Virus record (IMG/VR): IMGVR_UViG_3300043438_000055
Coordinates: 1 to 64,000 of that record
Reading direction: 5' to 3' (one strand)
Source: a virus
DNA: 64,000 nt
This document shows positions 2,823 through 26,814 of the stretch, piece after piece (position 1 is the stretch's first letter; the number at the start of each line of letters is the position of its first letter). The notes under the pieces are model-generated. The model saw only the letters and a list, made by a program, of their open reading frames with translations. It ran no database searches and was not told the origin of the DNA. The position numbers and the translations under genes were made by a program.

Positions 2823-2823
2823 G

Positions 2824-4849: not shown

Positions 4850-4865
4850 TGTTTAAATTTTATGG

Positions 4866-5882: not shown

Positions 5883-5908
5883 ATGTAGTTTTTGTTGGTT
5901 TCTCTTTA

Positions 5909-6058: not shown

Positions 6059-6075
6059 TATATTAATATTTTATA

Positions 6076-7164: not shown

Positions 7165-7186
7165 ACTAGTGCAATTAAATAATTTT

Positions 7187-7217: not shown

Positions 7218-7309
7218 GAGTATCAATAATTTACAATAACAAATTTAGTTATAAGTGTTTTAACTTTTTTAGTTAGAGGTTTAGAAATATCTACATATTG
7301 GTAGTAATA

Positions 7310-7438: not shown

Positions 7439-7448
7439 GTTGATTGTT

Positions 7449-8088: not shown

Positions 8089-8390
8089 TAGTGTAACTTT
8101 TTTATGGCCCCTAATTGTTGTAATGTTTGTAACTGAGTGGTAGTCACAGCTTTAGTGCTATCACTAACTCTTAATGCTTCCTGTACCTTATCTAATCTAC
8201 CTTCCACCTTTTCAATACGTACATTCTGAGAAGTTGCCTGCTCTTTAAATGTTGTACGAACATCTACGTATAGATATGAAATTGCAATGAGCACCAGAAA
8301 AAGGGTGCCCACTATTGGGTTTTTAGCAAACTCCTTAAACGATATAGGTAAAGGGTTTGCTGATATGTTTGTTTCTTTTTTCGCTGCCAT
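8088..8390 (-). CDS. Single-pass membrane protein with coiled coil (i-spanin candidate)
   Basis: A 100-residue protein with a cytoplasmic N-terminus (MAAKKETNISANPLPISFKE), one membrane helix (VGTLFLVLIAISYLYV) and a periplasmic coiled coil (VRIEKVEGRLDKVQEALRV). Topology fits an inner spanin or a lysis accessory protein. It overlaps the next gene by one base at both ends (TAATG), within the lysis cluster. No motif gives a firm function. Confidence 0.55.
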   Translation of the reverse strand: MAAKKETNISANPLPISFKEFAKNPIVGTLFLVLIAISYLYVDVRTTFKEQATSQNVRIEKVEGRLDKVQEALRVSDSTKAVTTTQLQTLQQLGAIKKLH

Positions 8391-8782
8391 TATCTTAATT
8401 TGTTTTTGTATTCTAATACAGCTAAACGCTGTTTGATCTCTGCTCTTTCAGTTGCTGCAGCTTCTTTGATATCAGTCATTTTTTGTACGATTTCCATCTT
8501 CATATCAGCTCTGCTTTGTGCTGCTGCCGCTCTAATAGCCTCCATCTCAATAGTAGTTCCCTGTGGAGGAATAGCTTTATTTTCAGTAGTTACTACCACT
8601 GCTATCTTATTATTTAAAACAGTTATCTGGTTGTTTAAGGTACTCACTTGAGTCAATAACCATCCAATAGCTGATACACAAATAGGTAAAAGTGTGAAAA
8701 CTAACTTCTCTACCAACCCTGACTTACTTTTATCAGCTGCCAGTTGCTCAGATATCTTTTCATTCCTTTCTTCTTGTGTCAT
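8390..8782 (-). CDS. Membrane-anchored coiled-coil protein, lysis cluster
   Basis: A 130-residue protein with a charged N-terminus (MTQEERNEKISEQL), a membrane helix (LVFTLLPICVSAIGWLL), then coiled coil (VSTLNNQITVLNNKIAVV) and a long charged helix ending EYKNKLR. This is similar in layout to the next gene downstream; the pair may interact through coiled coils. It starts one base from the end of the endolysin gene. Possible holin-associated or spanin-like factor; unproven. Confidence 0.5.
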   Translation of the reverse strand: MTQEERNEKISEQLAADKSKSGLVEKLVFTLLPICVSAIGWLLTQVSTLNNQITVLNNKIAVVVTTENKAIPPQGTTIEMEAIRAAAAQSRADMKMEIVQKMTDIKEAAATERAEIKQRLAVLEYKNKLR

Positions 8783-9387
8783 TATATACTACCATTTAAA
8801 AGGTTATTGTATTCATTAAAATGTTTTATACGATCTGGTAGACCAATTGTTCCACCATTAACACGCTTAGTCACTTTGGTTACCACTGCATCTGTAGCCC
8901 CCTCGTCAGCAATCTTATGTAATCCATTCTTATGGAAGAACCAAGCTGCAGATAAAAGTGGGTACTTTGTAGCTACAAGATCAGGGTTAGCTAGGATATC
9001 CTCCTCTACAGTCTTGTCAAAAGCAGCGTAGTTATCCTTACCTGTTAATTGTATATAACCACGACCTCTAAACTTATAACCTTCACCAGAAGCCTGAGGA
9101 CCGTTACCCATACGATTAGCATAGACAACGTTAGCAATCTTTTCAGGCTTACGTTCGTACTCTTTAGCACTTATAGCTGTAAAGTATTTCTTAAAGATGC
9201 TCTGTAAACCAGCAGCACCATAGTTTAAGTTCTCTGTAACAGCTTTGAATCCACCTGATTCATGTCCTGTTTGTGCTAGAAAATGAGCTAAACGTAAAGG
9301 AGTATTAATCTCAAACTTCTCTACTACACCAGGGATTTGTGCAATCACTGTGTCAGGAATATTTCCTTTTAACTTTTCTATGTTCAT
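8782..9387 (-). CDS. Endolysin, glycoside hydrolase family 19 (chitinase-like)
   Basis: A 201-residue protein covering a complete GH19 catalytic domain. AHFLAQTGHESGGF gives the first catalytic acid (E43), with the second probably E52 in the following helix, and FRGRGYIQLTG (107-117) is the substrate-groove signature. Phage GH19 enzymes cut the glycan of peptidoglycan (muramidase-like) rather than chitin. There is no signal peptide, so release should need a holin; a candidate is at 9985-10236. It sits in the middle of the membrane-protein cluster. Confidence 0.9.
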   Translation of the reverse strand: MNIEKLKGNIPDTVIAQIPGVVEKFEINTPLRLAHFLAQTGHESGGFKAVTENLNYGAAGLQSIFKKYFTAISAKEYERKPEKIANVVYANRMGNGPQASGEGYKFRGRGYIQLTGKDNYAAFDKTVEEDILANPDLVATKYPLLSAAWFFHKNGLHKIADEGATDAVVTKVTKRVNGGTIGLPDRIKHFNEYNNLLNGSI

Positions 9388-10838: not shown

Positions 10839-11207
10839 TTAGTAGGGCTGATAGGATTTCTCCTCTACAAAGTCAGACCCATACTTAATATTAATTTCTT
10901 TTTTAATATATGCTCGCTTGTCATTCAATCTATAAACAGATCTAGCTAGGTCAACAAACTCTTCTCCAAAACTACTAGATCTTTCAAAGTCTCTTAGAAG
11001 ATCTTCCACCTTCCAGAGAAACTGGTTCACCTTAAGAAGTTCATCAGTCATAGGATCATGTAATATCTCAGGATCTATCACTGTGTTTAGGTAGTTTTTT
11101 TCCTTGAAAACATTAACCAATTTGTCTTTGTCCTTTATGTTCAAAGCTTTGATAGATAATATTGTCCATTTATCTACCACTTCTCCTATAGAAACTTCTA
11201 TTTGCAT
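10839..11207 (-). CDS. DUF6165-like protein linked to glycosyltransferases
   Basis: A 122-residue protein when started at the Met at 11207 (MQIEVSIGEVVDKWTILSIK). The opening IGEVVDKWTILSIKALNIKDKDKL and the helical remainder (LLKVNQFLWKVEDLLRDFE, SVYRLNDKRAYIKKEINI) fit the DUF6165 family, which in bacterial genomes lies beside glycosyltransferase genes. Function unknown. The longer ORF from 11273 would run across the divergent promoter and is rejected. It is transcribed away from the large plus-strand glycosyltransferase gene. Confidence 0.75.
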   Translation of the reverse strand: MQIEVSIGEVVDKWTILSIKALNIKDKDKLVNVFKEKNYLNTVIDPEILHDPMTDELLKVNQFLWKVEDLLRDFERSSSFGEEFVDLARSVYRLNDKRAYIKKEINIKYGSDFVEEKSYQPY

Positions 11208-11217
11208 ACTAAAAATG

Positions 11218-11248
11218 TTTGATATTCCACGCAAATATACTAATTTTG
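11218..11248 (+). promoter_or_regulatory. Plus-strand promoter for the multidomain glycosyltransferase
   Basis: TTTG (11218-11221), 19 bases, TAATTTTG (11241-11248): a full match to the Bacteroidetes consensus. The start of transcription is expected near 11255, about 11 bases before the ATG at 11266. It is the only plus-strand promoter I can tie to a gene, and it overlaps the minus-strand promoter at 11232-11261. Confidence 0.85.
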
Positions 11249-11265: not shown

Positions 11266-14200
11266 ATGCCCAACAGTTATACATATTTTAAGGAAGAAGT
11301 CAAGGAATGGTTCAAGAATAATGTTCCTGCTAGTACAAGAATATTAGATATAGGCCCTGGACAAGGTACATATGGTAAGCTTTTAAGTGATATTGGGTAT
11401 AGAGCTATAGATGCTGTTGAGGTGTGGGAACCCTACATTAGTGAGTATAAACTATGGGAGTATTATGGGATTATATACAACAATGATATACGTGAGTTTG
11501 ATTGGTCTGAGTATGATTTTATCATCCTAGGTGATGTGTTAGAACATTTAACAGCTGAAGAAGGACAAAAGCTTATCAATGATATTGCCATGGCTAGGAA
11601 GCAATGTTTGGTTGCTATTCCATATATGATGGAGCAAGATGGTGAGCAGTATGGTAATACATATGAAACCCACCTGCAGGCAGACCTTACAAAGGAAGTG
11701 ATGGCAGAGCGTTACCCTACACTAGACTTGCTCTATGCAAATGAGCATTATGGGTATTATGTAAGTAAGAAGGTGGTAGACAAAGCATTTGTACTCTATG
11801 CCACAGAAGCCTATTATGATATTGTGACAGCCTGTGTACATTCTCTTACAACATTTAGTCAGTATCCTGTATTTGTTTACATGCTTAACTCTGACAAAAA
11901 GGTACCCAGAGCTACAACCATTAAATGGAACTGTGATATAGATCCAATAGAATACAACACCAAAGACCAGTTCTACATCAACAGGACAGATGATAGAATA
12001 TATAACATCCTCATACAGCGTCCACTGATTGTTATAGACTGTCTAAAGTATGCTGACAGTGTGATGTATGTAGACAGTGACAGTGTTGCTACACCTTTTG
12101 TAGACAAAGTGTTTAATTATCCTGTCTCTGAGTATCCCCTGTTTACATCTAGTATCTATGACCAAATGTTTCTGAATGGAAAAGGAGATCTTGAGAAACA
12201 TATATGTGAACTTCTAGCTATAAAGAGAGGCAGGTATATACAAACAGGATACTTCCTAGCTAGTGTGAGCTGTCTGAAGTTCTTAAAGGAGTGGGCTAAC
12301 ATGTGTACTCATCCTACAATACTAAAAGACTTTAAGAAATACGCACCCTTCCATGAAGAAACTGTAGCCAATGCTGTACGCTGGAAGTATGAAATAGATC
12401 AGTCATTACCACTCATCTATACCAATGCTAGCTTGGATGTACTAGAGAACATAGATAAATATGAGTTTGGTAAAGAACATTGGGAATGGTTTAAGCTACC
12501 TGATAGTAAGCATGAGTTGTTCTTTTACCATGGAGAGAAACGACCAGATGTAATGTATAAGATGATTGATAGATTGAAAGGTAATAAAAGAGTGTTGTTC
12601 CTAGCTCCTCATCTATCTACAGGTGGTATGCCTGCGTTCCTATTAAAGAGAATACAAGAGATAAGCTACTGCACAGACATCTATGTAGTTGAGTACCAAT
12701 GCCATAGCTTAGACTTTGTTGTACAGCGTAATGCAATCAAAGAGATTGTAGGATCTAACTTCACTACACTGTATGAGAACAAGATGGAACTGTTTGATAT
12801 TATTGATAGCTGGAAGCCAGACATCATTCATCTGGATGAGCCTGCTGAGAGATATGACAGAGAGATGATTACTAAGTTGTATGATACAAACAGATCATAC
12901 AAGATTGTAGAGACATTCCATGATGTAGCATTTAAGCCTGAAGAAAAAATCTTTCAGTCAGAAGCATATGCATTCTGTACACCATATCACCTCAATAAGT
13001 TTACCAACCTACAAGGTTATACAAAGGTGATTGAGTTTCCTATAGAGGATAAAAGGCCAGATGCTGTAGGTAAAATAATAGCTAAGAATATACTAGAGTT
13101 TGCTCCATTCAAGACCAGTGTTGTAAACATAGGACTATGGACCCCAGGCAAGAATCAAGCAGAGGGAATAGAGATAGCTAAGAAGTACCCTCATATGGAT
13201 TTCCATTTTGTAGGTAATCAAGCTGGTAACTTCAAAGACTACTGGGAACCATTAATGAAAGACTTACCACCTAATGTAAAGATATGGGGAGAAAGAAATG
13301 ATACATGGAAGTTTATGAGAGCTGCAGATATATTCATGTTCAACAGCACATGGGAATGCAACCCTCTTGTACTTAGAGAAGCAATCAGCTATGGTCTTCC
13401 TATCATAGCTAGAAACCTTCCTCAATATGAAGACATGTTTACTAAGTATTTACAACCAATAGATACAGACTTAAACACTATACAAACTAACTATGAAGTA
13501 CCTACAGAGAATACATTCAGACAAGACTACATAGACTTCTACAACCACGTAGACTCTATTTCTTTACAGCCACAAGATGTAACCATCACACAACACTATG
13601 TTGTTAATCCATTCCTTGAGATAACAGGTGTGAGTGATAGTAATTTCAAGGTGGAATTCTATGATGAGCAGGGAGCGTGTCACTACAGTAGTGTGATCAA
13701 AACCAACCAGTGGGTAAAGCTAGATAGAAGCTATTACACTAAATGGAGAAGTAAGATATGGCAGGATGATGTTCTTATACATGACTACACATTAGACTAT
13801 ACAGACAAGACTGTCTTCATCTACTTTGATAGTGAGAGTCTTGGAGATACAATTGCATGGATACCATACTGTTTAGAGTTTAAGAAGAAGCACAACTGTC
13901 ATGTTGTTGTTAGCACATATAAAAACTTCTTGTTTGAGAAAGCATATCCAGAGCTTGAGTTTGTTGCACCTGGAACACCTGTCAATGCTTATGGAGAATA
14001 CATAATAGGTTGGAGATATAATAAAGACCAAGAGCCTGAGTTGTGTAACACTATACCTCTACAGAAAGCAGCTGCTAATATACTTGGACTACCATATAGA
14101 GAAATAAGACCTAGGTTTGCTTATACACCTGTGGAGTTTGAAGACAAGAGTAAGTATGTAACTATTGCTACAAACAGTACAACAGGATGTAAGTTTTGGA

Positions 14201-14643
14201 CTAGAGAAGAGTGGCAGGAGTTAATTAACTATCTAGTGGAGAAAGGATACAAGGTGTATAATGTATCTAAAGAAAGAAATCCATTTGACAGATGTGTACA
14301 GATAGAAGATACATCAATGGATAACACCATTAATATGATTTGGAACAGTAAGTTCTTTATAGGACTATCTAGTGGATTAAGCTGGTTAGCTTGGATGATG
14401 GGTAAGCAAGTGGTGATGATATCTAACTTCACCAAAGCAGACCATGAGTTTCAATCCAACTGTATAAGAATTACAGATGAAACTGTATGTCATGGCTGTT
14501 GGAACAATAAAAACTTCAAGTTTGATAGAGGAGACTGGAACTGGTGCCCAATCTGGAAGGGTTATGACAGACAGTTTGAATGCCATAAAACCATCACAGC
14601 AGGTAAAGTTATAGCTTCCCTTCAGTCTTTAATTGCTCTCTAA
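11266..14643 (+). CDS. Methyltransferase plus three-glycosyltransferase fusion enzyme
   Basis: The only plus-strand gene; 1125 residues from the ATG at 11266 (earlier in-frame starts lie before the promoter). Domains: (1) about 1-165, SAM-dependent methyltransferase, ILDIGPGQG at 26-34 and GDVLEH at 89-94; (2) about 172-430, GT-A domain with the DxD-type motif MYVDSDS (D270, D272); (3) about 440-770, GT-B group 4 domain, LAPHLSTGGMPAF and an E-x7-E motif (E697, E705); (4) about 845-1125, GT9-like domain ending in a four-cysteine finger (C1075, C1078, C1094, C1106), as in the iron-finger autotransporter heptosyltransferases TibC/BAHT. Such a protein could build a short, possibly methylated glycan on one substrate. 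No membrane segments. Its 3' end overlaps the convergent nucleotidyltransferase gene by 35 bases. Confidence 0.85.
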   Translation: MPNSYTYFKEEVKEWFKNNVPASTRILDIGPGQGTYGKLLSDIGYRAIDAVEVWEPYISEYKLWEYYGIIYNNDIREFDWSEYDFIILGDVLEHLTAEEGQKLINDIAMARKQCLVAIPYMMEQDGEQYGNTYETHLQADLTKEVMAERYPTLDLLYANEHYGYYVSKKVVDKAFVLYATEAYYDIVTACVHSLTTFSQYPVFVYMLNSDKKVPRATTIKWNCDIDPIEYNTKDQFYINRTDDRIYNILIQRPLIVIDCLKYADSVMYVDSDSVATPFVDKVFNYPVSEYPLFTSSIYDQMFLNGKGDLEKHICELLAIKRGRYIQTGYFLASVSCLKFLKEWANMCTHPTILKDFKKYAPFHEETVANAVRWKYEIDQSLPLIYTNASLDVLENIDKYEFGKEHWEWFKLPDSKHELFFYHGEKRPDVMYKMIDRLKGNKRVLFLAPHLSTGGMPAFLLKRIQEISYCTDIYVVEYQCHSLDFVVQRNAIKEIVGSNFTTLYENKMELFDIIDSWKPDIIHLDEPAERYDREMITKLYDTNRSYKIVETFHDVAFKPEEKIFQSEAYAFCTPYHLNKFTNLQGYTKVIEFPIEDKRPDAVGKIIAKNILEFAPFKTSVVNIGLWTPGKNQAEGIEIAKKYPHMDFHFVGNQAGNFKDYWEPLMKDLPPNVKIWGERNDTWKFMRAADIFMFNSTWECNPLVLREAISYGLPIIARNLPQYEDMFTKYLQPIDTDLNTIQTNYEVPTENTFRQDYIDFYNHVDSISLQPQDVTITQHYVVNPFLEITGVSDSNFKVEFYDEQGACHYSSVIKTNQWVKLDRSYYTKWRSKIWQDDVLIHDYTLDYTDKTVFIYFDSESLGDTIAWIPYCLEFKKKHNCHVVVSTYKNFLFEKAYPELEFVAPGTPVNAYGEYIIGWRYNKDQEPELCNTIPLQKAAANILGLPYREIRPRFAYTPVEFEDKSKYVTIATNSTTGCKFWTREEWQELINYLVEKGYKVYNVSKERNPFDRCVQIEDTSMDNTINMIWNSKFFIGLSSGLSWLAWMMGKQVVMISNFTKADHEFQSNCIRITDETVCHGCWNNKNFKFDRGDWNWCPIWKGYDRQFECHKTITAGKVIASLQSLIAL

Positions 14644-14995
14644 TCTTTGTAGCAGAGATGTCACTTATTTCTTGAGGAGGAACATGTTCAACAACATCAT
14701 ATCCTACACCTCTACCAAAGTTAATAGACTCAATGTCAGGAATGATTATTAGTCTCACTTTGTTTTCTTCAATAAGATCTATTAGTTCTTCTGATAGATT
14801 CATCATTATTTGATATGCTGACCAAGGGTTCTTTTCATCTTGCTTAACATCTCGTACACATAGCAAGACCTTCTTTCCCTGGTTTAACTGTTGATCAATT
14901 AACCATCTGTGACCTTCGTGCCATGGTTGCCATCTTCCAATGAACATAGCGTAGCCATCTGTCTTTCTATTTCCTTCAGCTAAAATATTCTGCAT
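14609..14995 (-). CDS. Cytidylyltransferase-like nucleotidyltransferase
   Basis: A 128-residue protein with the HxGH-type nucleotidyltransferase motif (GRWQPWHEGHRWLI, H26-E-G-H29) and the C-terminal signature ISATKIRE (113-120). Enzymes of this fold transfer a nucleotide to a phosphorylated small molecule and release pyrophosphate. The substrate is unknown. It partners with the APS-kinase-like gene just upstream (16-base overlap) and the sulfotransferase, so activation of sulfate or of a sugar/alditol phosphate are both open. It is the 3' end of the operon and converges with the plus-strand gene. Confidence 0.82.
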   Translation of the reverse strand: MQNILAEGNRKTDGYAMFIGRWQPWHEGHRWLIDQQLNQGKKVLLCVRDVKQDEKNPWSAYQIMMNLSEELIDLIEENKVRLIIIPDIESINFGRGVGYDVVEHVPPQEISDISATKIREQLKTEGKL

Positions 14996-15414
14996 ATACG
15001 TTTGATTTGATCCACACTCTTCTCTATAGAAGTGTTAGATGTATTAATAATTGAATCTATATTATCTCTATTTGGAACTTCAAAGTCTTCCACTTTAAAT
15101 TGATCTCTACCTCTATCTTCTTCATATATAAGATAGATCCACTTAACATCTCTAGTTAGACTGCTTAGATACTGTCTAGCTTCTTCATAAGGATACACTA
15201 GTGATAGAACAACATTGTGTCCTTTGTAGCTTAAATACTTTGCTATGTCACTAGCTCTGTTTAAGTTTTTAATCCTACCTTCTCTACTGTAGTCTTTGTT
15301 ATTAAACATGTCTCTTAAGTCATCACCATCTATGTGGTGGAATCCCTCTGCCATAAACTTTTTAGCTAGGGTTGTCTTGCCTGATGCAGGCTGTCCAAAA
15401 ATAACTATTATCAT
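14980..15414 (-). CDS. APS-kinase-like P-loop kinase
   Basis: A 144-residue protein with a Walker A motif GQPASGKT (7-14), the IDGDDLR segment (28-34) and a stretch aligning with adenylylsulfate kinases (SREGRIKNLNRASDIAKYLS, then VVLSLVYPYEEAR). APS kinase makes PAPS, the sulfate donor of sulfotransferases. A PAPS-dependent sulfotransferase is encoded directly next to it (4-base overlap), which strengthens the reading. It is shorter than typical CysC (about 200 residues), and other small-molecule kinases share the fold, so the substrate is inferred. Confidence 0.75.
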   Translation of the reverse strand: MIIVIFGQPASGKTTLAKKFMAEGFHHIDGDDLRDMFNNKDYSREGRIKNLNRASDIAKYLSYKGHNVVLSLVYPYEEARQYLSSLTRDVKWIYLIYEEDRGRDQFKVEDFEVPNRDNIDSIINTSNTSIEKSVDQIKRICRIF

Positions 15415-16229
15415 TTTGTATATCTAAATTGTTGAAAAAACCATTGATAATTATCAAAGATCCAATTACTAACATCCTTACCTAATAAAGCTTTTGCTTT
15501 AGAGGGTACAGGTTCTAATCTAGTACGAATAGTATGGTCACCAAAGCTTCCATACACTTCATCATCTTCTTTAGTTACTTGCTCTATGTTGTCCCAATCA
15601 TGTTGGTAATATGGAATGCCTAAGTATTGATATATCCTTGTCATCTCTGTATCAGGATATAAACACAAGTCTTCAAATCTAACAAATAACATGTTCTTAT
15701 CTGTACCCATTCTAAATATCTCTTGTAATCTTTCAATAGCAAGACCAACAGGTTGACTCTGTGCCCATATGTCTATACGTTTTGGAACTGTTGTTCCTTG
15801 CATCTGTGCCCAATTGAGAATAGCATTAGCCTTATCAGGATTCTTTCTATAGTTGTTTTCCATAGAAGCAAAGATATCTCTAAGGTCCCTGACCATGCAT
15901 ATAATCTTTGGCTCTGGATGAATGAAGTTTAGGAAGTCATAATGTATTCCCCATCCTCTACTCTTATCTACAACATATTTCTTATCTGTAATAGCATTGT
16001 AATAAGCAATCATTCCTTCTTTACAGAATGCTTGGAATGCAGCTTTCATCACCTGTGAGTCTTGAGCTTGAAACTCTGGACTGTCTGTGTAATTACCTCT
16101 AGCAGCAAACACCAATTCAAGAACACCACTAGTTGGTGTAGCATATACGTCTGGGTTTTGTGCTAATATGTTTTGTAACAATGTTGAACCTGCTCTTGGT
16201 AATGAGCTTTGATAGAATATATTTTCCAT
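15411..16229 (-). CDS. Sulfotransferase (PAPS-dependent)
   Basis: A 272-residue protein with the 5'-phosphosulfate-binding loop SLPRAGSTLLQ (9-19), the 3'-phosphate-binding segment VRDLRDIFAS (113-122), and RFEDL (184-188) followed by PDTEMTRIYQYLGIPY, all typical of the Sulfotransfer_1/3 superfamily. These enzymes transfer sulfate from PAPS to hydroxyls of glycans or peptides. Cytoplasmic, no signal peptide. With the kinase and nucleotidyltransferase downstream and a GT9-like enzyme upstream it forms one operon from the promoter at 17123-17154. The acceptor is not known; phage fibre glycans or host surface glycans are the candidates. Confidence 0.85.
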   Translation of the reverse strand: MENIFYQSSLPRAGSTLLQNILAQNPDVYATPTSGVLELVFAARGNYTDSPEFQAQDSQVMKAAFQAFCKEGMIAYYNAITDKKYVVDKSRGWGIHYDFLNFIHPEPKIICMVRDLRDIFASMENNYRKNPDKANAILNWAQMQGTTVPKRIDIWAQSQPVGLAIERLQEIFRMGTDKNMLFVRFEDLCLYPDTEMTRIYQYLGIPYYQHDWDNIEQVTKEDDEVYGSFGDHTIRTRLEPVPSKAKALLGKDVSNWIFDNYQWFFQQFRYTK

Positions 16230-16230
16230 A

Positions 16231-17106
16231 TTAAGATTTTAAAGATGCAATAACTTGATCTACATTAAATATTTCTGTTTCATTGTTATATGGAAACTCT
16301 AATAGGTTTCCTGATATATCAAACTTCTGCAAGTATGCATTACGTAACTCAGGCTTCTTGGTGAATGGATTACATACAATGTTATCATGTACATGATGTC
16401 CAAACACTTTAGGTTTGTTACACACCCAAAGGACTGTAGAAGGTTTATTCATAGCAGCAGCTGCGTGATGGCCAAAGCTATCCATAAACAATCTCTTACT
16501 ACTAAGTTCTATAAGAACAGCTAGTGCTCTGAAGTTGTCTGTAACAGGAGTGGTGAAGTCATAACCAATCTGATCTTCTCTTCTTATGTGTACAATGTTA
16601 TATTCATTTTTAAACTCCTCAATAACAGGACCTATAACACATGTAGGGATGTCTCTAGCCCATGAGTATTTCAACTCTTGTCCTGGAGCACCACCATTTG
16701 TTTGTAATAATAAAATAGGTTTGTCAGATGTAAACTTCTGACCAAAGAATTTACGTTCTCTATCTGTAAGATAGAGCTTAGGTATGCTACTCTCAGGAGC
16801 GTCAATGCCAAACATCTTTGTCCATGTGAGACTCAAATGTTCATTCTGCATAAGATGTTCTGTCTGTATATATGGATCATGTCCAAACACTTTAAACTCT
16901 TTATCCTCTATAAAATCTTCATAGAAGTATTGTGTCATACCAAAAGAAAATGAGCGATACACAAAGGGGTTGTTTATAAACACCTCTGGGTAACCGCTCA
17001 TTACAATTAATTGACTATCAGGATATTGTGTATGAATTGCTTCACATACAGATGTGGCAAGTATACACTTACCTATACCACCATTGATTTGAAAAATGAT
17101 ATTCAT
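16231..17106 (-). CDS. GT9-like (heptosyltransferase fold) glycosyltransferase
   Basis: A 291-residue protein with a GGIGKCILATSVCEAI opening (9-24) of the GT9/ADP-heptose transferase fold, a middle segment PILLLQTNGG where nucleotide-sugar binding starts, and the C-terminal DSFGHHAAAAMNKPSTVLWV, equivalent to the conserved SG.sHlaaalg.P.v.l pattern of GT9 enzymes. Donor and acceptor cannot be read from sequence. First gene of the sulfotransferase operon. It resembles in fold domain 4 of the plus-strand fusion enzyme but lacks the cysteine finger. Confidence 0.78.
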   Translation of the reverse strand: MNIIFQINGGIGKCILATSVCEAIHTQYPDSQLIVMSGYPEVFINNPFVYRSFSFGMTQYFYEDFIEDKEFKVFGHDPYIQTEHLMQNEHLSLTWTKMFGIDAPESSIPKLYLTDRERKFFGQKFTSDKPILLLQTNGGAPGQELKYSWARDIPTCVIGPVIEEFKNEYNIVHIRREDQIGYDFTTPVTDNFRALAVLIELSSKRLFMDSFGHHAAAAMNKPSTVLWVCNKPKVFGHHVHDNIVCNPFTKKPELRNAYLQKFDISGNLLEFPYNNETEIFNVDQVIASLKS

Positions 17107-17122
17107 AATTTAGCTTTATAAG

Positions 17123-17154
17123 CAAAGGTATACATTGCTTATAATAAAACCAAA
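17123..17154 (-). promoter_or_regulatory. Bacteroidetes-type promoter for the sulfotransferase operon
   Basis: On the minus strand: TTTG (17151-17154), 20 bases, TACCTTTG (17123-17130), full consensus. The start of transcription is expected about 17116, ten bases before the ATG at 17106. It should drive the GT9-like, sulfotransferase, APS-kinase-like and nucleotidyltransferase genes. Confidence 0.85.
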
Positions 17155-17164
17155 TTATTTAATA

Positions 17165-17542
17165 TTATTTTGCTGTAGTGGTAGTAGTGGTAGTTGTAGC
17201 AGGAGCACTAGTAGTTGTACTAGTTGTAGTTGTTGAATCTACAAACACTGCTGCAGCTAATGCGTCTAATAAAGCTTGATCAAGATTAGCAGCTTCCACT
17301 CTAAATGATTGTGCATCTGGGCTATTAGGTAACCAGTCACTAAACAAAGTGTTGAAGTTATTAATAGCATGATATGTCTTTGGACCTGTGTAGCCTACTG
17401 GCTTACCTGCCCATACGTTGTCTATCACTGCTTGTGCTTCTGCTTGTACATCTGCAATAGCTACCTGTACGTTTTGTGTGTCAGAAATTACCTGCACTGT
17501 ACCAAAACCAAAAATGTGGATTGTATTCCATGCGTTTGCCAT
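17165..17542 (-). CDS. Fibre-associated protein with poly-Thr C-tail
   Basis: A 125-residue protein. The first 100 residues (MANAWNTIHIFGFGTVQVIS, then ADVQAEAQAVIDNVWAGKP, YHAINNFNTLFSDWLP) form a small alpha/beta domain that I recognise as a recurring Bacteroidetes phage protein without known function. The C-terminal ~25 residues are Thr/Ser/Ala (STTTTSTTTSAPATT...). It follows the giant fibre gene by 20 bases in the same direction and is probably co-transcribed with it, so a fibre accessory or decoration role is likely. Confidence 0.65.
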   Translation of the reverse strand: MANAWNTIHIFGFGTVQVISDTQNVQVAIADVQAEAQAVIDNVWAGKPVGYTGPKTYHAINNFNTLFSDWLPNSPDAQSFRVEAANLDQALLDALAAAVFVDSTTTTSTTTSAPATTTTTTTTAK

Positions 17543-17562
17543 AGTTGTTATTTTTTGTAAAG

Positions 17563-20500
17563 TTAAATTAAATTATTGTTTTTAAGTATATTTTCTATTA
17601 TTTTTATTCTATCTTTTAAGCTATCATTCTCAGCTTTAAGTTCTTTGAAAGCGTTTACATAAGAAGCATATATGGCATCCTTCTCAAATTGTAGGATTGG
17701 ACTACCACCTTGTTCAACTATCACCTCAAGACCATTCTCATCCACTCTAGATAGTGGGTTTGTTTCCACTACACAAGACATTACTTGTTGTACTTCCTGT
17801 GCTATGAAACCATATTTCTTATGACATGATGTATCACCATTCCAGCAATAGCTTACAGGCCTCAACTTAACAATATCATCTAGACCAAAGCAAGTATCTT
17901 GAATAGTATTCTTTCTTCTACAATCAGAAATACCACCACCCCATTGACACAAGTTATTTACAAATGTGTAGTTATTAGCTACACCTGGAATACAAGAACC
18001 AATAATGTGAGAGTTAGTTGTGCTATTACTACAGTTATATGTACCACCTAAAATTGTTGACCAAGGAGAAGAAACATTTATTAAATTGCAACATCCACCC
18101 CCCATAAACGAACAATCAGCATATGTAAGATTACCATATCCGCCAACTACAACAGAGCGACAACCATTTGCTATATTATATAAACCACCACCTATTGTTG
18201 ATTCATATCCTGATGCTGTGTTTCCTACACCACCCCCTACAAAAGAAACATATCCTGATGCAGTATTTGAAGTGCCTCCTGTTATAGCACTTCTTGTATT
18301 TGAAGCAACGTTGTTTGTTCCGCCTGCAATTACTGACATAGCACCACCTATGGTATTGTTACTACCTCCTCCACCTATTGTAGAACAGTTAGCACTTGCA
18401 AAGTTAGAACTACCACCACCTACTGTTGAATTTATTCCTAATGCACAGTTACTTGTACCTCCACCAACAAATGAACGACCACCTGTTGCTCTATTTACAT
18501 AGCCACCTGAAACTGTTGAATAAGCTCCTGATGAACTATTATTATAACCTCCTCCAACAAAAGCTCTTGGGCTTGTGGCACAGTTATCGCTACCACCTGC
18601 TGTTGTAGACCAAACACCTGATGAAATGTTTGCTTGACCACCTCCAACAAATGAACAAGCTCCTGTAGCTGTGTTTGAAATACCACCTCCTACTGTTGAG
18701 CGATAAGCTGATGCTGTATTAGAACTACCTCCTCCAACAACACTTGAATAACTACTTGATATATTAGAATTGCCTCCTCCAATAAAAGCAAAATAACAAG
18801 AAGCTGTATTATTACTACCGCCTACTACAGAACTTCTATAGAAATTGGCAGTATTTGTGAAACCTCCTCCTACAAATGACCAACCTCCTGATGCAATGTT
18901 ATATCTTCCACTAAATGTTCCTGAACAACCTCCTGATGCAGTGTTTTGTAATGCACCACCTACAACAGAATGTCCTGATGATGCTATATTTAATTGTCCA
19001 CCACTAACAGTAGCGTGTCCTGCTGATGCTATATTAGTATTACCGCCTCCAATAGTTGAACAAGCCCCTGAAGCTGTATTTACAGCACCTCCTGCAATAG
19101 CAGATGTATCTCCTGAAGAAGTGTTTGAATTACCACTACCAATAAAACTTCTATATCCTGATGCTGTATGGTTACGACCACCAACTATTGTTGCCCAAGT
19201 AGTAGAAGCTGTATTTAAATAACCACCAACAACTATTGCATATTCACCCCCACACGCTTTGTTACCATAACCACTACCAACAAATGAGAACGTAGTTGCA
19301 GCTAAATTACTTTGACCTCCTGCTACCACTGAAGCAACTCCTGATGATGTATTACCTTGACCTGAAGCATATGCAAACCCACCATTTGCAAGGTTGCCAC
19401 ACCCTCCTGATATTATGGAACAAGCTCCTGAAGCTATGTTATATAAACCACTTCCTATAAATGAGTTACAACCACTTGCTGTACCTGAATCACCACCTGC
19501 AATTGCTGCGTATATTGCACTAGCTGTGTTACCATTACCACTTCCAATAAATGCTCTAGCTCCAGAGGCAGTATTTACATTACCACCTGCTACTGTTGCG
19601 TGAGCTCCTGTTGCTCTATTCTGAAATCCTCCTCCAATAAAACTATACGCACCTGCTGCACTAAATGTTGGTGCCACTGTAAATGCACAAGCAGCAAGAC
19701 TCCAAGTACCTCCTGATGTATTATTACCTACACCTCCACCTACTACAGCACCATAAGCTAAACAACCTGATGTTGCATTATATACATTATTGCAGTTACC
19801 ACCACCAATAAATCCACCAAAAGCTGCAGCATAGTTTCTGCATCCTCCGCTAATAGCAGAACTTAAACCTAATGCTTGGTTTCCATAACCGCCGCTTACT
19901 GTAGAACCACCATTACCTGCTGCTTCATTACTTAATCCACCTCCTATAGATGAATACGCACCTGATGCAGTATTTACTCTACCGCCTGCAATAGCAGCAT
20001 TACTACAAGATGCAGTGTTGCAACAACCACCGCCTATTGCTGAATGTGCTCCTGAAGCTGTATTATTTCTTCCTCCTGCTACAGTAGAAAACCCTCCTGA
20101 AGCAGAATTATAATAACCGCCTCCAACAGAAGAGCAACCACCACCTGCTGAAATACCATATCCACCACTAACTGTTGCATAAGCAGTTGTAGCTGAGTTT
20201 AGTCTACCACCACCAACAGTTGTCCAATATGAAGATGATGTATTACCACACCCACCACCTAAAAATGAACAAGCTCCTGAAGCTGTGTTACCTTGACCAC
20301 CTGCTACTACTGATTTAGCTCCACTTGCTATATTAGAAAGTCCTGAACCAACAAATGAATTAGTTCCACTTGCTGTGTTTGTATCACCTCCTGCTATGGT
20401 ACCATAACCTGCACTTACAGTGTTATTTGCACCACCACCAATTGTTCCATGTATTACTGCTGAATTGTTTCTTCCACCTGATACTGTTGAATAAGTACCT

Positions 20501-23500
20501 GATGCAGTATTATTACATCCTCCTCCTGAAAATGAATAATCTCCTGTAGCTTTTACAACTCTACCACCAACTACAGTGCTATGACTTCCTGTTGCACAGT
20601 TAAAAAGACCTCCTCCTACAAATGCTCTTGTATTTACTGCTTGGTTCAATTCTCCTCCTACCACTACAGTATAATTATTTGATGAAGTGTTAGAACATCC
20701 TCCTCCTACAAATGCACAATTACCATTAGCAGTGTTTGCTCTTCCTCCTGATACTGTTGAATGGGCTGCTGAAGCAAGATTGGCTTGACCTCCTCCTACT
20801 GTAGAAAAACCACCACTTGATGTATTACTAAATCCACCTGCTATTGTTGAATAGCACGCAGATACTGTATTTAAATAACCACCTGCTATTGTAGCCAAGT
20901 AACCACTAGCTGAGTTTCCTCTACCACCACCTACTGTCGATTGTCCATTAGAAGATGTGTTACTAGCTCCCCCACCTACTACTGAACAGTTTCCTGATGC
21001 AGTATTACCAAATCCTCCTCCTATAAAACCACGATACCCTGATGCTGTATTACTAGCTCCACCTGCAACTATAGAATCTGCACCATTTGATACATTGCTT
21101 CTACCTCCTCCTATAAATGACCAAGTACCTGATGCTGTGTTAAGACAACCACCAACTATTGTAGCAAAAGTATTAGTAGCCCTATTCTGAAATCCTCCTC
21201 CTATAAAACTAAAATCACCTGCCGCACATATTGTAGGTGCAACATTAAATCTTTGACCATTCCAAGTACCACCTGTTGTATTACCACCTACACCACCTGC
21301 TATTGTTACAGCACAAACTTTTGCACCACAAATATAGTTTGAACTACCCCCACCAATAGCTGCAAACCCATTACCAAATGCAGTAGATACACTACAAATA
21401 AAATTTTGATAGCCTCCTGATATTGTAGAATAACTTGCAGAGTTAGTATTAAAATACCCACTCAATATAGATGCATAAGGTTTAGGGGCACTATTACCAA
21501 ATCCACCACCAATTATCGATAAGTCACCTGATGCTATATTGCATCCGCCTCCTAAAACAACAGAACAAGCATTTGAGGCTGTGTTATTTGCACCACCTCC
21601 AACAATTGAATGTCCACCTGATGCTGTGTTTGAGTTTCCACTGCCAACAAAAGAACGACTTCCTGAAGATATATTTCCTAAACCACCTCCTATTGTTCCT
21701 TCATATCCACTTGATGTATTTGCTCTACCACTTCCTACAAAAGAATATCCTGATGAAGCTGTATTACCACAACCTCCTGCTACTGCTGCTCTATAAGATG
21801 ACGCTGTATTATTTTGACCTCCTCCTATAAATGAATGTGCACCACTAGCATTATTGCTTTGACCTCCACCAATAGCAGCACAAGCTCCTGAAGAACTATT
21901 TAATTTACCACTACCTATAAAGGAATGACTTCCTAATGAAACGTTATTACACCCACTAGCAATACCTGACATATCTCCTGTAGCACAGTTTTGCAATCCT
22001 GCACCAACAAAAGCTCTTGCATTTGTTGCAAGGTTTAATTCACCTCCTGCTACAACTGAATATATACCACTAGCTGTATTTGCACATCCTCCACTTACAG
22101 TAGAACAAGCCCCTGAAGATGTGTTAGCTCTACCTCCTGCTACACTTGCAAAAGCACCTGAAGCAACGTTTTGCTGTCCACCTGATACAATTGCTCTTCC
22201 TCCTGTGGCTGTATTTAAAATACCTCCTCCTACAGTTGAAAAATCTCCTCCTGCTGTATTTCCATATCCACCACTGACTGTTGTATTACAAGATGATGCA
22301 TTATTACACGCACCACCACCCACTGTAGAACTTGAATATGCGTTAGCACAATTTTTATAACCACCTGATACAGTTGAATAACTTCCTGTTGCTCTATTCT
22401 GAAATCCTCCTCCTATAAAAGAGTATTGACCTGCAACACATTTAGTTGGAGCAACTGTAAAATCACAAGCTGCTAAAGACCAAGTACCCCCTGTAGTGTT
22501 GTTTCCAATACCACCTGCTATGGTAGCACCAAGAACTAAACAAGATGATGTAGGGCTGCAAATTATATTACATAATCCTGCTCCAACAAATGAATAAATA
22601 CCACCTGCATAGTTTACACCACCACCAACTATTGTTGATTCTATGGCTGATGCTACGTTTGCATATCCTCCACCTATAAACGAATAACATCCTGATACAG
22701 TATGACCTCTACCGCCACCAAGGAATGACATACAGTTGCTCACTGTATTAGAAAATCCACCTACCGCTGAAGAATATCTTGAACTTACAGTATTTCCATA
22801 TCCACTTCCTATAAATGAACTAGTTGCTGTAACTGTGTTCCTATCTCCACCTGCTATTGTTGCAAAATTTCCACAAGCTACGTTCGTACATCCACCTCCT
22901 ACAGCAGCATATACTGCTGAAGCTATGTTACTTTGACCTCCTCCTACTGTAGAACAAGCTCCTGAAGCTGAGTTTAGATAACCTCCTGCAACCACAGAGT
23001 GAGAACCTGATGCAGTGTTTGCCTGACCGCCTAATATAGCTGCTCTATATCCACTTGCAGTGTTAGCCCATCCTCCTGCTACAACAGTTTGATAATAACT
23101 TGCTGTGTTAGCACATCCATTTCCAACAAATGAACCAACTCCTGAAGCTGTGTTACCTTTTCCACCAACCACTGCTGACTCTCCTGACGTTGCAGCATTA
23201 GCACATCCTCCACCTACAAAACTACAAGCCCCTGATGCAGTGTTTGATATACCACCTGCAACTGTTGAGTTTGCTCCTGAAGCACAGTTACTTGTTCCTC
23301 CTCCTATAGTGGAACGATTACCTGATGCTCTATTTATGTAACCACCTGATATTGTAGAATATGTATTTGAAGCACTATTATTATAACCTCCACCTACAAA
23401 CGCTCTTGGACTTATAGCACAGTTATCACTACCTCCTACAACTGCAGACCAAGCACCTGTTGCAGTATTTGCTTGACCACCTCCAACTGTTGAACAGTTA

Positions 23501-26500
23501 CCTGATGCAGTGTTACCTTGACCACCTCCAATAAATGACATATTTGCTGAAGCTGAATTACCACTACCCCCTCCAATAAAAGAATTTGAATTTTGTGTTG
23601 TATTAGAAAGACCTCCTGCTATAGCAGAATATGTACCCACTGAAGCATTAGCTGAACCACTTAAAGAACCACTATATGCTCCTGAAGAAGTATTTGTTAC
23701 ACCACATCTTACTGAAGAACATAATCCTGCTCCAAGCACAATAACAGCACTAGAACCAACATTTATACCTGAGCTACCAGAGCTACCACTTGTACCTGAC
23801 GTACCACTGGTGCCAGAAGTTCCACTTGTTCCTGAGCTACCACTAGTTCCTGTTGTACCACTAGACCCACTAGAGCCTGTTGTACCAGAGGTTCCTGTTG
23901 TACCAGACGTACCACTTATAGCTGATGTACCACTAGAGCCTGAAGTACCTGTGGTACCTGACGTACCACCTGTACCATTGGTTCCACTTGTACCACTTGT
24001 ACCTGTAGTTCCAGCTGTACCTGAGGTGCCATTAGATCCATTAAGACCTGATGTTCCTGAGGTACCTGTAGAACCTGAGGTTCCTGATGTGCCATTGACA
24101 CCACTACTGCCTGAGGAACCAGATGTTCCTGAAGATCCAGAAGTACCTGTGGTTCCAGAGGTTCCACTTGTACCACCTGTTCCATTAGTGCCAGACGTGC
24201 CACTAGAACCTGCTGAGCCACTAGAGCCAGAAGTTCCTGTTGTGCCACTTGTTCCACTTGTTGCAGACGTACCACTAGATCCACTTGTACCTGTAGTACC
24301 ACTAGTTCCAGAAGAGCCAGTCGTACCACTAGTACCACTTGTTCCTCCTGTTCCATTAGTTCCACTTGTACCTGATGTTCCTGTGGTACCAGATGTACCA
24401 TCTATTCCTGAAGACCCTGAAGATCCTGATGTTCCTGTTGTTCCTGAAGTACCTGAGGTTCCTCCAGATCCATTGGTGCCTGACGTACCACTAGTTCCTG
24501 TAGTTCCACTTGTTCCTGTTGTACCGCTACTACCACTGCTGCCAGAAGTGCCAGAAGTACCTGAAGAACCATCACCTCCTGATGCACCATCAAGATTTAC
24601 TATCCATGATGTATAAGTACCACTACCTACTGTTCTAGTAGGTGCTGCGAATGATAAAGATCCTGTTGCTGGGTTATATGAAATTACCTCACACTCTTGG
24701 AAGTTGTTTGCATCATAAACCACAATGATTGATTGGGCCACTGTATAAGCCAATCCTAATCCTACAATGATTGTCCCAGCATTGCCTAATGTAAAAGTAG
24801 AAGATGATGTTGTTGCATATCTATCTCCTTGTAATCCTGAGGTACCACTCGTACCACTTGTCCCAGTTGTTCCTGATGTACCAGCTGTACCACTAGAGCC
24901 TGCACTACCACTAGAACCACTTGTTCCTGTTGTTCCACTTGTTCCAGAAGTTCCTGTAGTTCCAGAAGTTCCTGTAGTACCACTAGATCCTGAGGTGCCT
25001 GTAGTGCCACTTGTTCCACTAGTACCTCCAGTACCATCTGTTGCAGATGTTCCTGAACTTCCTGATGTTCCAGAAGTACCACTAGTACCTGTAGTGCCTG
25101 ATGTACCAGCACTACCACTTGTTCCACTAGTTCCACTTGTTCCTGTTGTACCTGAAGAGCCAGAAGACCCTGTTGTTCCTGAGGTGCCAGAAGTACCTCC
25201 TGTACCATCAGTGCCACTTGTTCCACTGGTTCCTGCAGTACCAGATGTTCCAGATGTTCCAGAAGTTCCACTTGTTCCTCCTGTACCATCAGTACCTGAA
25301 GTTCCACTTGTACCACTTGAACCTGCTGTTCCACTAGATCCTGCTGTTCCACTAGTACCACTAGTACCAGTTGTACCAGAGGTTCCCCCTGTTCCATCTG
25401 TACCACTAGTTCCTGACGTTCCTGTTGTACCTGCTGTACCACTTGATCCTGAGGTTCCTGAACTGCCACTAGTACCTGTAGTACCTGAAGTGCCACTGGT
25501 ACCTGCTGTACCTGATGTACCTGTAGTACCAGCAGTTCCTGAAGAACCTGATGTACCAGAGCTACCTGAAGTTCCTGTGGTTCCACTTGTACCAGATGTG
25601 CCATCTGTACCTGAAGTACCTGATGTAGCACTTGTACCTGATGAACCTGAGCTTCCAGAAGTACCTGTTGTACCACTTGTGCCAGTTGTACCACTAGTCC
25701 CTGATGTACCATCAGTACCACTTGTTGCAGAAGTACCATCTGTTCCACTTGTACCAGACGTACCAGTAGTTCCAGAAGTGCCAGAGGTTCCTGACGTACC
25801 ATCAATACCTGAAGTACCAGAGGTACCACCTGTAGCTGTGAAGTTTGCAATAGTACCATCACCTCGTATATATTGAGCTGCTGATCCTGTTGCTACAACG
25901 TTTATAGTTCCTGAAGAAGTTATAGGGGGTGTTGTAATGCTGAATGCTGGAGGCATGGCAAGTTGTACACTTGTCACTGTTCCTACAGACCAACTTCTAT
26001 TTGCTGATAAGTTTTGTGTTAAACCATTGATGCTCAACGTTCTAGTTGTAGGCACTGGTGTATATCCTAATGCAGATATAATATCTCCTTGTGTAACAGG
26101 AGTGGCAGACGTCACAAGACCTTTGCCATTCACAGCCACCTTTAAAAAGGTGTTGCTTCCATAGACATTAGGATTGACTGTCTGTAATGTAAGAGTTGTA
26201 GGAGAACCTGTCATACCAGTTCCTGTCACGTCACCAACAATGATGATGACACCAGAAGGAACAGCAATATTTATAGGAGTGATGTTAGTCACTAATCCTT
26301 TTGTGTTCACTGTTACTACTGGAACCTGTGTAGTGGAACCATATGTTCCTGGGTTAGGATTAACACTAGCCAATGTAAGGACAGCAGAGCCTGGGCCACT
26401 AGCTGTACCATCTCCTGTTAGTGCTGTGATATAAGGACCTGATGGTTGGTATGATGTATTATCTAAGCTACCATCCCCTTTGACAAAGTCAGAAGAGGTT

Positions 26501-26814
26501 CCACCTGTTGTTATTAATGCTGCAGACTCAATTGAATCTGTAATCTTGAATGTATAACCATTACTAAGAATGACTGTATTCTGGGTTAAGCTACCGCCTA
26601 GCTTCACTGGTTGACCAGGAGCTGACTGTATAATTCCATTTTGGAATATATACCCAAGACCAGCATCTCCAAACTTTGCGTCTATTTTTTGTAGAGCTGT
26701 CTGAAGATTATCATTAGTGTTGATGCCAGTGTATATTAAATTCTCACCTTCATAGAATACGCAGGTGGCATTTAGTATGACTGGACATGGTTCTGCTGAA
26801 CAAGATACATCCAT
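17563..26814 (-). CDS. Giant tail fibre: collagen-like, YadA-like head, S74 chaperone
   Basis: A 3083-residue protein. Residues 1-~325: N-terminal attachment part, opening with a Cys-rich YTGINTNDNLQTALQKID module and followed by beta-repeat sequence. About 328-1008: GTSGTSG collagen-like triplets, interrupted at about 660-746 by a beta domain (RYATTSSSTFTLG to TYTSWIVNL) that is also found in the 362-residue fibre. About 1015-2938: a long run of 15-residue repeats of the NTASGxxSxxxGG type, the left-handed beta-roll of YadA-like adhesin heads, unusually rich in Cys. 2963-3083: Peptidase_S74 intramolecular chaperone, with the Ser-Asp cleavage site S2963-D2964 (ISDCRRK) and a C-terminal coiled coil. 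It should trimerise, fold and then self-cleave. Own promoter at 26894-26924. Receptor binding is inferred from the class of protein. Confidence 0.92.
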   Translation of the reverse strand: MDVSCSAEPCPVILNATCVFYEGENLIYTGINTNDNLQTALQKIDAKFGDAGLGYIFQNGIIQSAPGQPVKLGGSLTQNTVILSNGYTFKITDSIESAALITTGGTSSDFVKGDGSLDNTSYQPSGPYITALTGDGTASGPGSAVLTLASVNPNPGTYGSTTQVPVVTVNTKGLVTNITPINIAVPSGVIIIVGDVTGTGMTGSPTTLTLQTVNPNVYGSNTFLKVAVNGKGLVTSATPVTQGDIISALGYTPVPTTRTLSINGLTQNLSANRSWSVGTVTSVQLAMPPAFSITTPPITSSGTINVVATGSAAQYIRGDGTIANFTATGGTSGTSGIDGTSGTSGTSGTTGTSGTSGTDGTSATSGTDGTSGTSGTTGTSGTTGTSGSSGSSGTSATSGTSGTDGTSGTSGTTGTSGSSGTSGSSGTAGTTGTSGTAGTSGTSGTTGTSGSSGTSGSSGTAGTTGTSGTSGTDGTGGTSGTTGTSGTSGTAGSSGTAGSSGTSGTSGTDGTGGTSGTSGTSGTSGTAGTSGTSGTDGTGGTSGTSGTTGSSGSSGTTGTSGTSGTSGSAGTSGTTGTSGTSGTSGSSGTSATDGTGGTSGTSGTTGTSGSSGTTGTSGTTGTSGTSGTTGTSGSSGSAGSSGTAGTSGTTGTSGTSGTSGLQGDRYATTSSSTFTLGNAGTIIVGLGLAYTVAQSIIVVYDANNFQECEVISYNPATGSLSFAAPTRTVGSGTYTSWIVNLDGASGGDGSSGTSGTSGSSGSSGTTGTSGTTGTSGTSGTNGSGGTSGTSGTTGTSGSSGSSGIDGTSGTTGTSGTSGTNGTGGTSGTSGTTGSSGTSGTTGTSGSSGTSATSGTSGTTGTSGSSGSAGSSGTSGTNGTGGTSGTSGTTGTSGSSGTSGSSGSSGVNGTSGTSGSTGTSGTSGLNGSNGTSGTAGTTGTSGTSGTNGTGGTSGTTGTSGSSGTSAISGTSGTTGTSGTTGSSGSSGTTGTSGSSGTSGTSGTSGTSGTSGSSGSSGINVGSSAVIVLGAGLCSSVRCGVTNTSSGAYSGSLSGSANASVGTYSAIAGGLSNTTQNSNSFIGGGSGNSASANMSFIGGGQGNTASGNCSTVGGGQANTATGAWSAVVGGSDNCAISPRAFVGGGYNNSASNTYSTISGGYINRASGNRSTIGGGTSNCASGANSTVAGGISNTASGACSFVGGGCANAATSGESAVVGGKGNTASGVGSFVGNGCANTASYYQTVVAGGWANTASGYRAAILGGQANTASGSHSVVAGGYLNSASGACSTVGGGQSNIASAVYAAVGGGCTNVACGNFATIAGGDRNTVTATSSFIGSGYGNTVSSRYSSAVGGFSNTVSNCMSFLGGGRGHTVSGCYSFIGGGYANVASAIESTIVGGGVNYAGGIYSFVGAGLCNIICSPTSSCLVLGATIAGGIGNNTTGGTWSLAACDFTVAPTKCVAGQYSFIGGGFQNRATGSYSTVSGGYKNCANAYSSSTVGGGACNNASSCNTTVSGGYGNTAGGDFSTVGGGILNTATGGRAIVSGGQQNVASGAFASVAGGRANTSSGACSTVSGGCANTASGIYSVVAGGELNLATNARAFVGAGLQNCATGDMSGIASGCNNVSLGSHSFIGSGKLNSSSGACAAIGGGQSNNASGAHSFIGGGQNNTASSYRAAVAGGCGNTASSGYSFVGSGRANTSSGYEGTIGGGLGNISSGSRSFVGSGNSNTASGGHSIVGGGANNTASNACSVVLGGGCNIASGDLSIIGGGFGNSAPKPYASILSGYFNTNSASYSTISGGYQNFICSVSTAFGNGFAAIGGGSSNYICGAKVCAVTIAGGVGGNTTGGTWNGQRFNVAPTICAAGDFSFIGGGFQNRATNTFATIVGGCLNTASGTWSFIGGGRSNVSNGADSIVAGGASNTASGYRGFIGGGFGNTASGNCSVVGGGASNTSSNGQSTVGGGRGNSASGYLATIAGGYLNTVSACYSTIAGGFSNTSSGGFSTVGGGQANLASAAHSTVSGGRANTANGNCAFVGGGCSNTSSNNYTVVVGGELNQAVNTRAFVGGGLFNCATGSHSTVVGGRVVKATGDYSFSGGGCNNTASGTYSTVSGGRNNSAVIHGTIGGGANNTVSAGYGTIAGGDTNTASGTNSFVGSGLSNIASGAKSVVAGGQGNTASGACSFLGGGCGNTSSSYWTTVGGGRLNSATTAYATVSGGYGISAGGGCSSVGGGYYNSASGGFSTVAGGRNNTASGAHSAIGGGCCNTASCSNAAIAGGRVNTASGAYSSIGGGLSNEAAGNGGSTVSGGYGNQALGLSSAISGGCRNYAAAFGGFIGGGNCNNVYNATSGCLAYGAVVGGGVGNNTSGGTWSLAACAFTVAPTFSAAGAYSFIGGGFQNRATGAHATVAGGNVNTASGARAFIGSGNGNTASAIYAAIAGGDSGTASGCNSFIGSGLYNIASGACSIISGGCGNLANGGFAYASGQGNTSSGVASVVAGGQSNLAATTFSFVGSGYGNKACGGEYAIVVGGYLNTASTTWATIVGGRNHTASGYRSFIGSGNSNTSSGDTSAIAGGAVNTASGACSTIGGGNTNIASAGHATVSGGQLNIASSGHSVVGGALQNTASGGCSGTFSGRYNIASGGWSFVGGGFTNTANFYRSSVVGGSNNTASCYFAFIGGGNSNISSSYSSVVGGGSSNTASAYRSTVGGGISNTATGACSFVGGGQANISSGVWSTTAGGSDNCATSPRAFVGGGYNNSSSGAYSTVSGGYVNRATGGRSFVGGGTSNCALGINSTVGGGSSNFASANCSTIGGGGSNNTIGGAMSVIAGGTNNVASNTRSAITGGTSNTASGYVSFVGGGVGNTASGYESTIGGGLYNIANGCRSVVVGGYGNLTYADCSFMGGGCCNLINVSSPWSTILGGTYNCSNSTTNSHIIGSCIPGVANNYTFVNNLCQWGGGISDCRRKNTIQDTCFGLDDIVKLRPVSYCWNGDTSCHKKYGFIAQEVQQVMSCVVETNPLSRVDENGLEVIVEQGGSPILQFEKDAIYASYVNAFKELKAENDSLKDRIKIIENILKNNNLI
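18000..23770 (-). repeat. YadA-head-like 45-bp coding repeats
   Basis: The DNA encoding residues ~1015-2938 of the giant fibre is an array of 45-bp units (15 residues, e.g. NTASGYRAAILGGQA, NTASGSHSVVAGGYL). Units vary in sequence but keep N-x-A-S/T and G-G. Three longer blocks (about 22385-22600, 21180-21370, 19615-19790) share a distinct insert (GGxWSLAAC..TVAPT then AYSFIGGGFQNRAT), showing higher-order duplication. Such DNA can expand, shrink or recombine. Confidence 0.9.
23790..25830 (-). repeat. Collagen-like GTS triplet coding repeats
   Basis: About 2 kb of 9-bp-based repeats encoding G-T-S and G-T-T/G-S-S/G-T-D/G-T-A triplets, split by one globular domain (24575-24835). Codon choice varies between units (synonymous drift), so the reading frame and amino-acid pattern are kept by selection rather than by recent slippage alone. 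Homologous to the shorter array at about 6540-6770 and 7010-7060. Confidence 0.9.

Follow-up and report, generated by a model that had tools for sequence, protein, structure and literature searches.

A TibC-like glycosyltransferase and a Ser/Thr-triplet tail fibre as a putative glycosylation system of a crAss-like phage

We analysed the first 64 kb (hereafter the window) of an IMG/VR record totalling 67,587 bases, and propose that the phage probably builds its own glycan coat on a giant tail fibre rich in Ser/Thr triplets. The proposal is based on the homology of the last domain of a four-domain fusion enzyme to the protein O-glycosyltransferase TibC, and on the co-occurrence of this domain with such triplets in other viruses. 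An earlier note on the same DNA had described the enzyme and the fibre, an observation that was confirmed, and had read them as a self-glycosylation system in which the fibre is O-heptosylated. This interpretation is partly supported: the pairing of enzyme and substrate is strongly supported by comparative genomics of a kind capable of refuting it, while heptose as the sugar is unproven.

Identity of the phage and layout of the locus

The source of the window is a crAss-like phage, because the window encodes the muzzle and ring proteins (Table 1). Its relatives point to an aquatic (lake) origin of the record. The GH19 protein probably has a role in lysis. The enzyme and its likely substrate lie 2.9 kb apart, in line with the few kb given earlier, and a cassette of nucleotidyltransferase, APS-kinase-like, sulfotransferase and GT9-like genes sits between them.

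Table 1. Features of the window, with amino acid ranges referring to the respective protein.
Feature	Position	Strand	Evidence
GH19 chitinase/lysozyme-like protein	8782-9387		PF00182
DUF6165 protein, upstream of the enzyme	10839..11234	-	
Fusion enzyme, 1125 aa: methyltransferase, GT-A, GT4, TibC-like glycosyltransferase	11266..14643	+	ORF, profiles, model
Class I methyltransferase-like domain, N-terminal, aa ~1-165	11266..11760	+	
GT-A-fold glycosyltransferase domain, aa ~166-450	11761..12615	+	DSDS motif
GT4-type domain, aa ~451-765	12616..13560	+	PF00534, 39.7 bits (cut-off 26.4)
TibC-like domain, aa 790-1121	13633..14628	+	TIGR04414, 4rap match, model
Iron-finger cysteines C1075, C1078, C1094, C1106	14488..14583	+	Aligned to TibC
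Nucleotidyltransferase, HxGH type	14609..14995	-	PF01467, 23.7 bits (cut-off 21)
APS-kinase-like protein	14980..15414	-	PF01583, 42.9 bits (cut-off 21.1)
Sulfotransferase	15411..16229	-	PF13469, 2.5e-20, 74.1 bits (cut-off 27)
GT9-like glycosyltransferase	16231..17106	-	PF01075 in 2/14 aligned homologues
Small protein with Thr-rich tail	17165..17542	-	
Giant fibre, 3083 aa, likely substrate	17563..26814	-	
Peptidase_S74 intramolecular chaperone, C-terminal, aa 2963-3016	17767..17928	-	
Roll with 15-residue period, mostly aa 1115-2930	18026..23472	-	
Ser/Thr collagen-like triplets, aa 330-1018	23761..25827	-	
Muzzle, ring proteins, tail fibre protein	52840-63530		Profile matches (muzzle PF25731, 3.6e-30; CrAss_Ring_1, Ring_2)

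A fusion enzyme with a TibC-like domain

The enzyme ORF opens with the ATG at 11266, and an alternative TTG start is possible at 11104. Its methyltransferase-like domain scored below the PF13489 cut-off in the window and was matched by this family in 16 of 26 aligned homologues. For the modelled GT-A domain, the top Foldseek matches were retaining enzymes of the GT6/GT8/GT24 type, at a TM of about 0.5; sequence profiles run against solved structures gave no identification for this domain or for the GT9-like protein.

The last domain reached 241.6 bits against TIGR04414, above the curated cut-off of 200, and matched PDB 4rap (E 4e-44); its model superposes on TibC with a TM of 0.84 of the target. 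The four cysteines lie in the C-terminal domain exactly as the earlier note had claimed, and its recognition of a TibC/BAHT-type iron finger holds as well: their spacing (3/16/12) is that of Cys339/342/358/370, the iron-finger cysteines of TibC (PMC4358343). Homology over the full domain, together with the fold, rules out a chance spacing. The alignment also shows conservation of the catalytic Asp and of three residues at the sugar site, D861, T972, K976 and W1040 corresponding to D110, T226, K230 and W305 of TibC, in which Asp-110 is the base of catalysis (PMC4358343). Since the Asp, Lys and Trp are also invariant across 24 TibC representatives, catalysis of the TibC kind is likely for the phage domain. 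One representative of the 24 (L526, from G020) lacks the iron finger and has the catalytic residues. In another record (G558:48664-49659) the TibC frame is interrupted by one in-frame TAA, which points to either a disrupted gene or the use of an alternative genetic code.

The position of TibC Arg-286 is occupied by T1021 in the phage enzyme, and Arg-286 is retained by only 7 of the 24 representatives. In TibC this residue contacts the adenine of the ADP-heptose donor, and its loss abolishes or largely diminishes activity (PMC4358343). Given this replacement, we do not file the enzyme as an ADP-heptosyltransferase; its donor, and perhaps its acceptor, may differ from those of TibC.

The fibre as the likely substrate

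The abundance of Ser/Thr triplets reported earlier for the 3083-residue fibre was borne out. The fibre contains 928 Ser and Thr residues and 155 G[ST][ST]G motifs, as compared to a mean of 14 in shuffled sequences. The Gly-X-Y triplets form seven runs between residues 330 and 1018, G-[ST]-[ST] triplets totalling about 600 residues, and Pfam Collagen matched seven stretches of the fibre (E 2.8e-65). Ser or Thr occupies 92% of the X and 78% of the Y positions, and no Pro occurs in the triplet runs of the window. Across TibC loci the corresponding values were 85% and 82%, with Pro below 1%, whereas control fibres with G[DE]K repeats had Ser/Thr at 5% of X and 18% of Y positions, and Pro at 18% of X.

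The YadA-like repeats described earlier show a 15-residue period, with 90 roll motifs in the whole fibre against a mean of 8 in shuffles; no Pfam match to the YadA family was obtained in the fibre at E 0.001, and the name is thus descriptive. A second collagen-like fibre, at 6076-7164, matches Pfam Collagen and carries 19 GSTG motifs, making it a candidate additional substrate.

Co-occurrence of the enzyme and the triplets across viruses

The earlier note had proposed comparing other phages for co-occurrence of the enzyme with GTS fibres. We selected 44 viral records of at least 30 kb solely by a GTSGTSGTS DNA pattern. TIGR04414 was found in 22 of them, 21 above the cut-off, as compared to 1/30 records of at least 30 kb (1/50 of all lengths) in a random 14-mer sample and 0/42 records with Ser/Thr-poor G[DE]K collagen-like fibres (Fisher, 9e-6 and 1.5e-8, respectively), the control records differing in habitat and host from the GTS-motif records. 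In the sole TibC-positive random record, the TibC gene lies 4.4 kb from a GSTG-rich ORF of 1361 aa. The TibC gene is absent from the other half of the GTS-motif records, many of which are fragments; among records of at least 60 kb, it was present in 19/24 with the motif and in 0/18 controls. The generic GT2 glycosyltransferase family showed a mild, non-significant difference (13/44 GTS records versus 4/30 random records, p 0.16), on which grounds a general enrichment in glycosyltransferases was rejected; an association with collagen-like fibres at large was likewise rejected, given the absence of TIGR04414 from the G[DE]K records.

The TibC domain matched more than 550 viral contigs. When we started from the enzyme, 27 of 50 long TibC records had the strict GTS pattern, versus 0/72 controls (1e-13). 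Equal frequency of the enzyme in phages without Ser/Thr-repeat fibres, named in the earlier note as evidence against the pairing, is not what we found: 43 of the 50 records had either the strict pattern or an ORF with at least ten G[ST][ST]G motifs.

Lineage control and independent lineages

For a lineage control, we took 40 relatives identified by their muzzle protein; 8 of them have TibC and 32 lack it. G[TS]S triplets were present in all 8 TibC-positive relatives and in 5 of the 32 TibC-negative ones, or 1 of 26 once shorter copies of the positives were set aside. Four records (G570, G581, G582 and G589) were rejected as counter-examples; they are shorter, and their muzzle regions are essentially identical to those of the TibC-positive G557 and G574. 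Two more TibC-negative relatives are shorter copies of TibC-positive records. Because the enzyme and the fibre lie close together and can be lost jointly, truncation inflates the larger count; the honest count is the smaller one, from relatives of at least 86 kb, with triplets in 4/4 with TibC and 1/8 without (p 0.01).

At 55% identity the TibC domains fall into 24 groups, some drawn from the fibre-first sample, and in 19 of these the retrieved locus includes an ORF with triplets or a roll. TibC and triplets occur together in unrelated phages, including a 735-kb megaphage (L002), a further lineage (L147) and the isolated Microcystis phage Mel-JY01 (L003, PP395634), whose host is Microcystis elabens and whose TibC fusion at 4750-8430 lies beside a GTS ORF at 2-3049. 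In PP395634, hypothetical CDSs annotated at 1-651 and 739-2298, on the strand opposite to that (+) ORF, seem to be misannotated. A fibre with the roll alone was considered as an alternative partner and rejected for several loci (L094 and L117 among them) that were cut before the GTS part, which is present further along the record; L092, with a roll fibre and no such explanation, remains an exception.

A pattern-based scan, which distant members can escape, covered 84,980 genomes of bacteria and archaea and found three TibC matches. GTS/GSS proteins were encoded near all three, within 0.8 kb in two. A survey of Gammaproteobacteria found 2/369 above the TIGR04414 cut-off, both of them already known. 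In two bacterial MAGs, lipoprotein-like GTS/GSS proteins lie 90 (L516) and 742 (L517) bases from stand-alone TibC genes. These small proteins (L516 3593-3931; L517 7851-8471 and 8594-9019) have GTS/GSS tails and acidic stretches and are possibly glycosylated surface proteins.

A putative sulfation cassette at TibC loci

The full set of four cassette genes was present at 30 of the 184 TibC loci examined, whereas none of the 240 control loci had it; gene order and strand are permuted from one TibC locus to the next (L009, L066 and L535). The presence of the cassette suggests a sulfated glycan. The closest solved structures to the nucleotidyltransferase are NMN adenylyltransferases, and its identification as a true ATP sulfurylase is unsupported (score 14.5, cut-off 24.3); given this resemblance, PAPS synthesis is only a possibility. 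Relatives of the sulfotransferase occur in Synechococcus phages. The DUF6165 protein was found at 50/184 TibC loci and at no control loci.

Alternative explanations

Alternatively, the enzyme and its neighbours could alter a glycan of the host surface, either LPS or capsule, so as to mask receptors or exclude superinfecting phages; they would then lie beside the fibre only since both concern adsorption. Surface-polysaccharide loci commonly hold GT4, GT9-like and methyltransferase domains, and phage enzymes that alter the host serotype are known (PMC12619734). However, the targets of the TibC family are proteins (PMC4358343), and host-glycan remodelling would leave unaccounted for both the tracking of Ser/Thr triplets, down to the 0/42 in Ser/Thr-poor collagen records, and the GTS/GSS proteins near the same enzyme in three bacterial genomes. 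We therefore consider it unlikely. That the two genes merely mark the lineage or habitat of certain large freshwater phages, with no functional link, appears quite unlikely: the controls do differ in host and habitat, and large genomes hold more accessory genes, but the association persists at 60 kb and above, among the crAss-like relatives and across the 24 TibC groups, that of GT2 is non-significant, and the three bacterial genomes show the pairing too.

A very unlikely reading is that the enzyme modifies other virion or secreted proteins, one candidate being the small protein with the Thr-rich tail, or that within the fibre it modifies only the roll. The small protein adjoins the fibre at 11 TibC loci and is a possible further substrate. 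The substrates of the TibC family, TibA and AIDA-I, are repetitive β-structured adhesins, which the roll may resemble. In most TibC groups, however, triplet fibres occur in the absence of both the small protein and the roll.

Proposed mechanism

Glycosylation of the triplet fibre by the phage itself is thus the reading we prefer. As suggested by its homology and by the linkage of the genes, the TibC-like domain would place the first sugar, taken from a nucleotide donor, on Ser/Thr of the fibre inside the infected cell. Judging from domain type, extension of the glycan would fall to the GT4 and GT-A domains of the fusion enzyme and to the stand-alone GT9-like protein, and capping to the methyltransferase domain. 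Where the cassette is present, the sulfotransferase, fed by the APS-kinase-like protein, may sulfate the glycan. Sugars on the Pro-free triplets could make the fibre stiffer or more stable and alter its surface, as Thr glycosylation does in some collagens; the latter is a known route to collagen stabilisation (Bann 2000, as cited in PMC3368898).

A wider reading, which we hold tentatively and regard as rather doubtful, is that hundreds of environmental phages share a modular, exchangeable assembly line. In it, a TibC-type initiating domain, fused to methyltransferases and to glycosyltransferases for extension and often joined by the sulfation cassette, would give Pro-free Gly-Ser/Thr-Ser/Thr fibres a coat of oligosaccharide that is both methylated and sulfated. 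The donor would be other than ADP-heptose, and the coat would take the place of hydroxyproline as a stabiliser of viral collagen.

GTS repeats recur in the fibres of environmental phage genomes, and their role has so far lacked an explanation. That they are accompanied in unrelated phages by a dedicated protein glycosyltransferase suggests a role as glycosylation scaffolds, which would bear on adsorption, surface properties of the virion, evasion of defences and stability. As the isolate Mel-JY01 carries the enzyme/fibre pair, the question is directly testable.

Comparison with known systems

The earlier note had regarded a system of this kind as new. Glycosylation of phage virions and of viral collagen has precedents, and any novelty would be confined to the TibC-type enzyme, its triplet fibre and the sulfation link. 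In the literature searched, which covered few subscription papers, we found neither a phage enzyme of the O-heptosyltransferase (TibC) type, nor Ser/Thr-triplet fibres as glycosylation targets, nor linked sulfation genes.

The mycobacteriophages Che8, Corndog and Myrna are known to use glycosyltransferases of their own to modify proteins of the capsid and tail tube (Freeman 2023, as cited in PMC12363180). The gene is likewise phage-encoded there, and modification of the phage's own virion proteins is known, whereas here it is predicted; the targets are the capsid and tail tube, with no TibC-type enzyme described in the citing passage, in place of the putative triplet-fibre targets proposed here. 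Mimivirus glycosylates its own collagen (PMC8968730), and the bacterial BclA is another glycosylated protein with collagen-like triplets. The likeness drawn earlier to the GPT triplets of BclA is loose: it holds for the collagen-like triplets, with glycosylation predicted in our case, but the window runs differ in that Ser/Thr occur at X as well as at Y, and in their lack of Pro. Both the fibre and the host of these collagens are unrelated to those of the crAss-like phage. The cyanophages S-SKS1, S-SCSM1 and S-SRM01 encode a homologous sulfotransferase, with 27-29% identity in an alignment spanning more than 90% of the protein. The copy described here differs in being part of a cassette that is tied to TibC loci and also holds the genes for the APS-kinase-like protein, the nucleotidyltransferase and the GT9-like protein.

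The closest known enzymes are TibC and AAH (BAHT; TIGR04414; PDB 4rap/4rb4), which the phage domain resembles in fold, in the catalytic Asp, in the Thr, Lys and Trp of the donor site, and in the identically spaced iron-finger cysteines; at the position of Pro-300 it has Ser, as AAH does. It differs from them in its fusion to three other enzyme domains and in the replacement of Arg-286 by Thr, and whereas the partner of TibC and AAH is an autotransporter, that of the phage enzyme would be a collagen-like triplet fibre.
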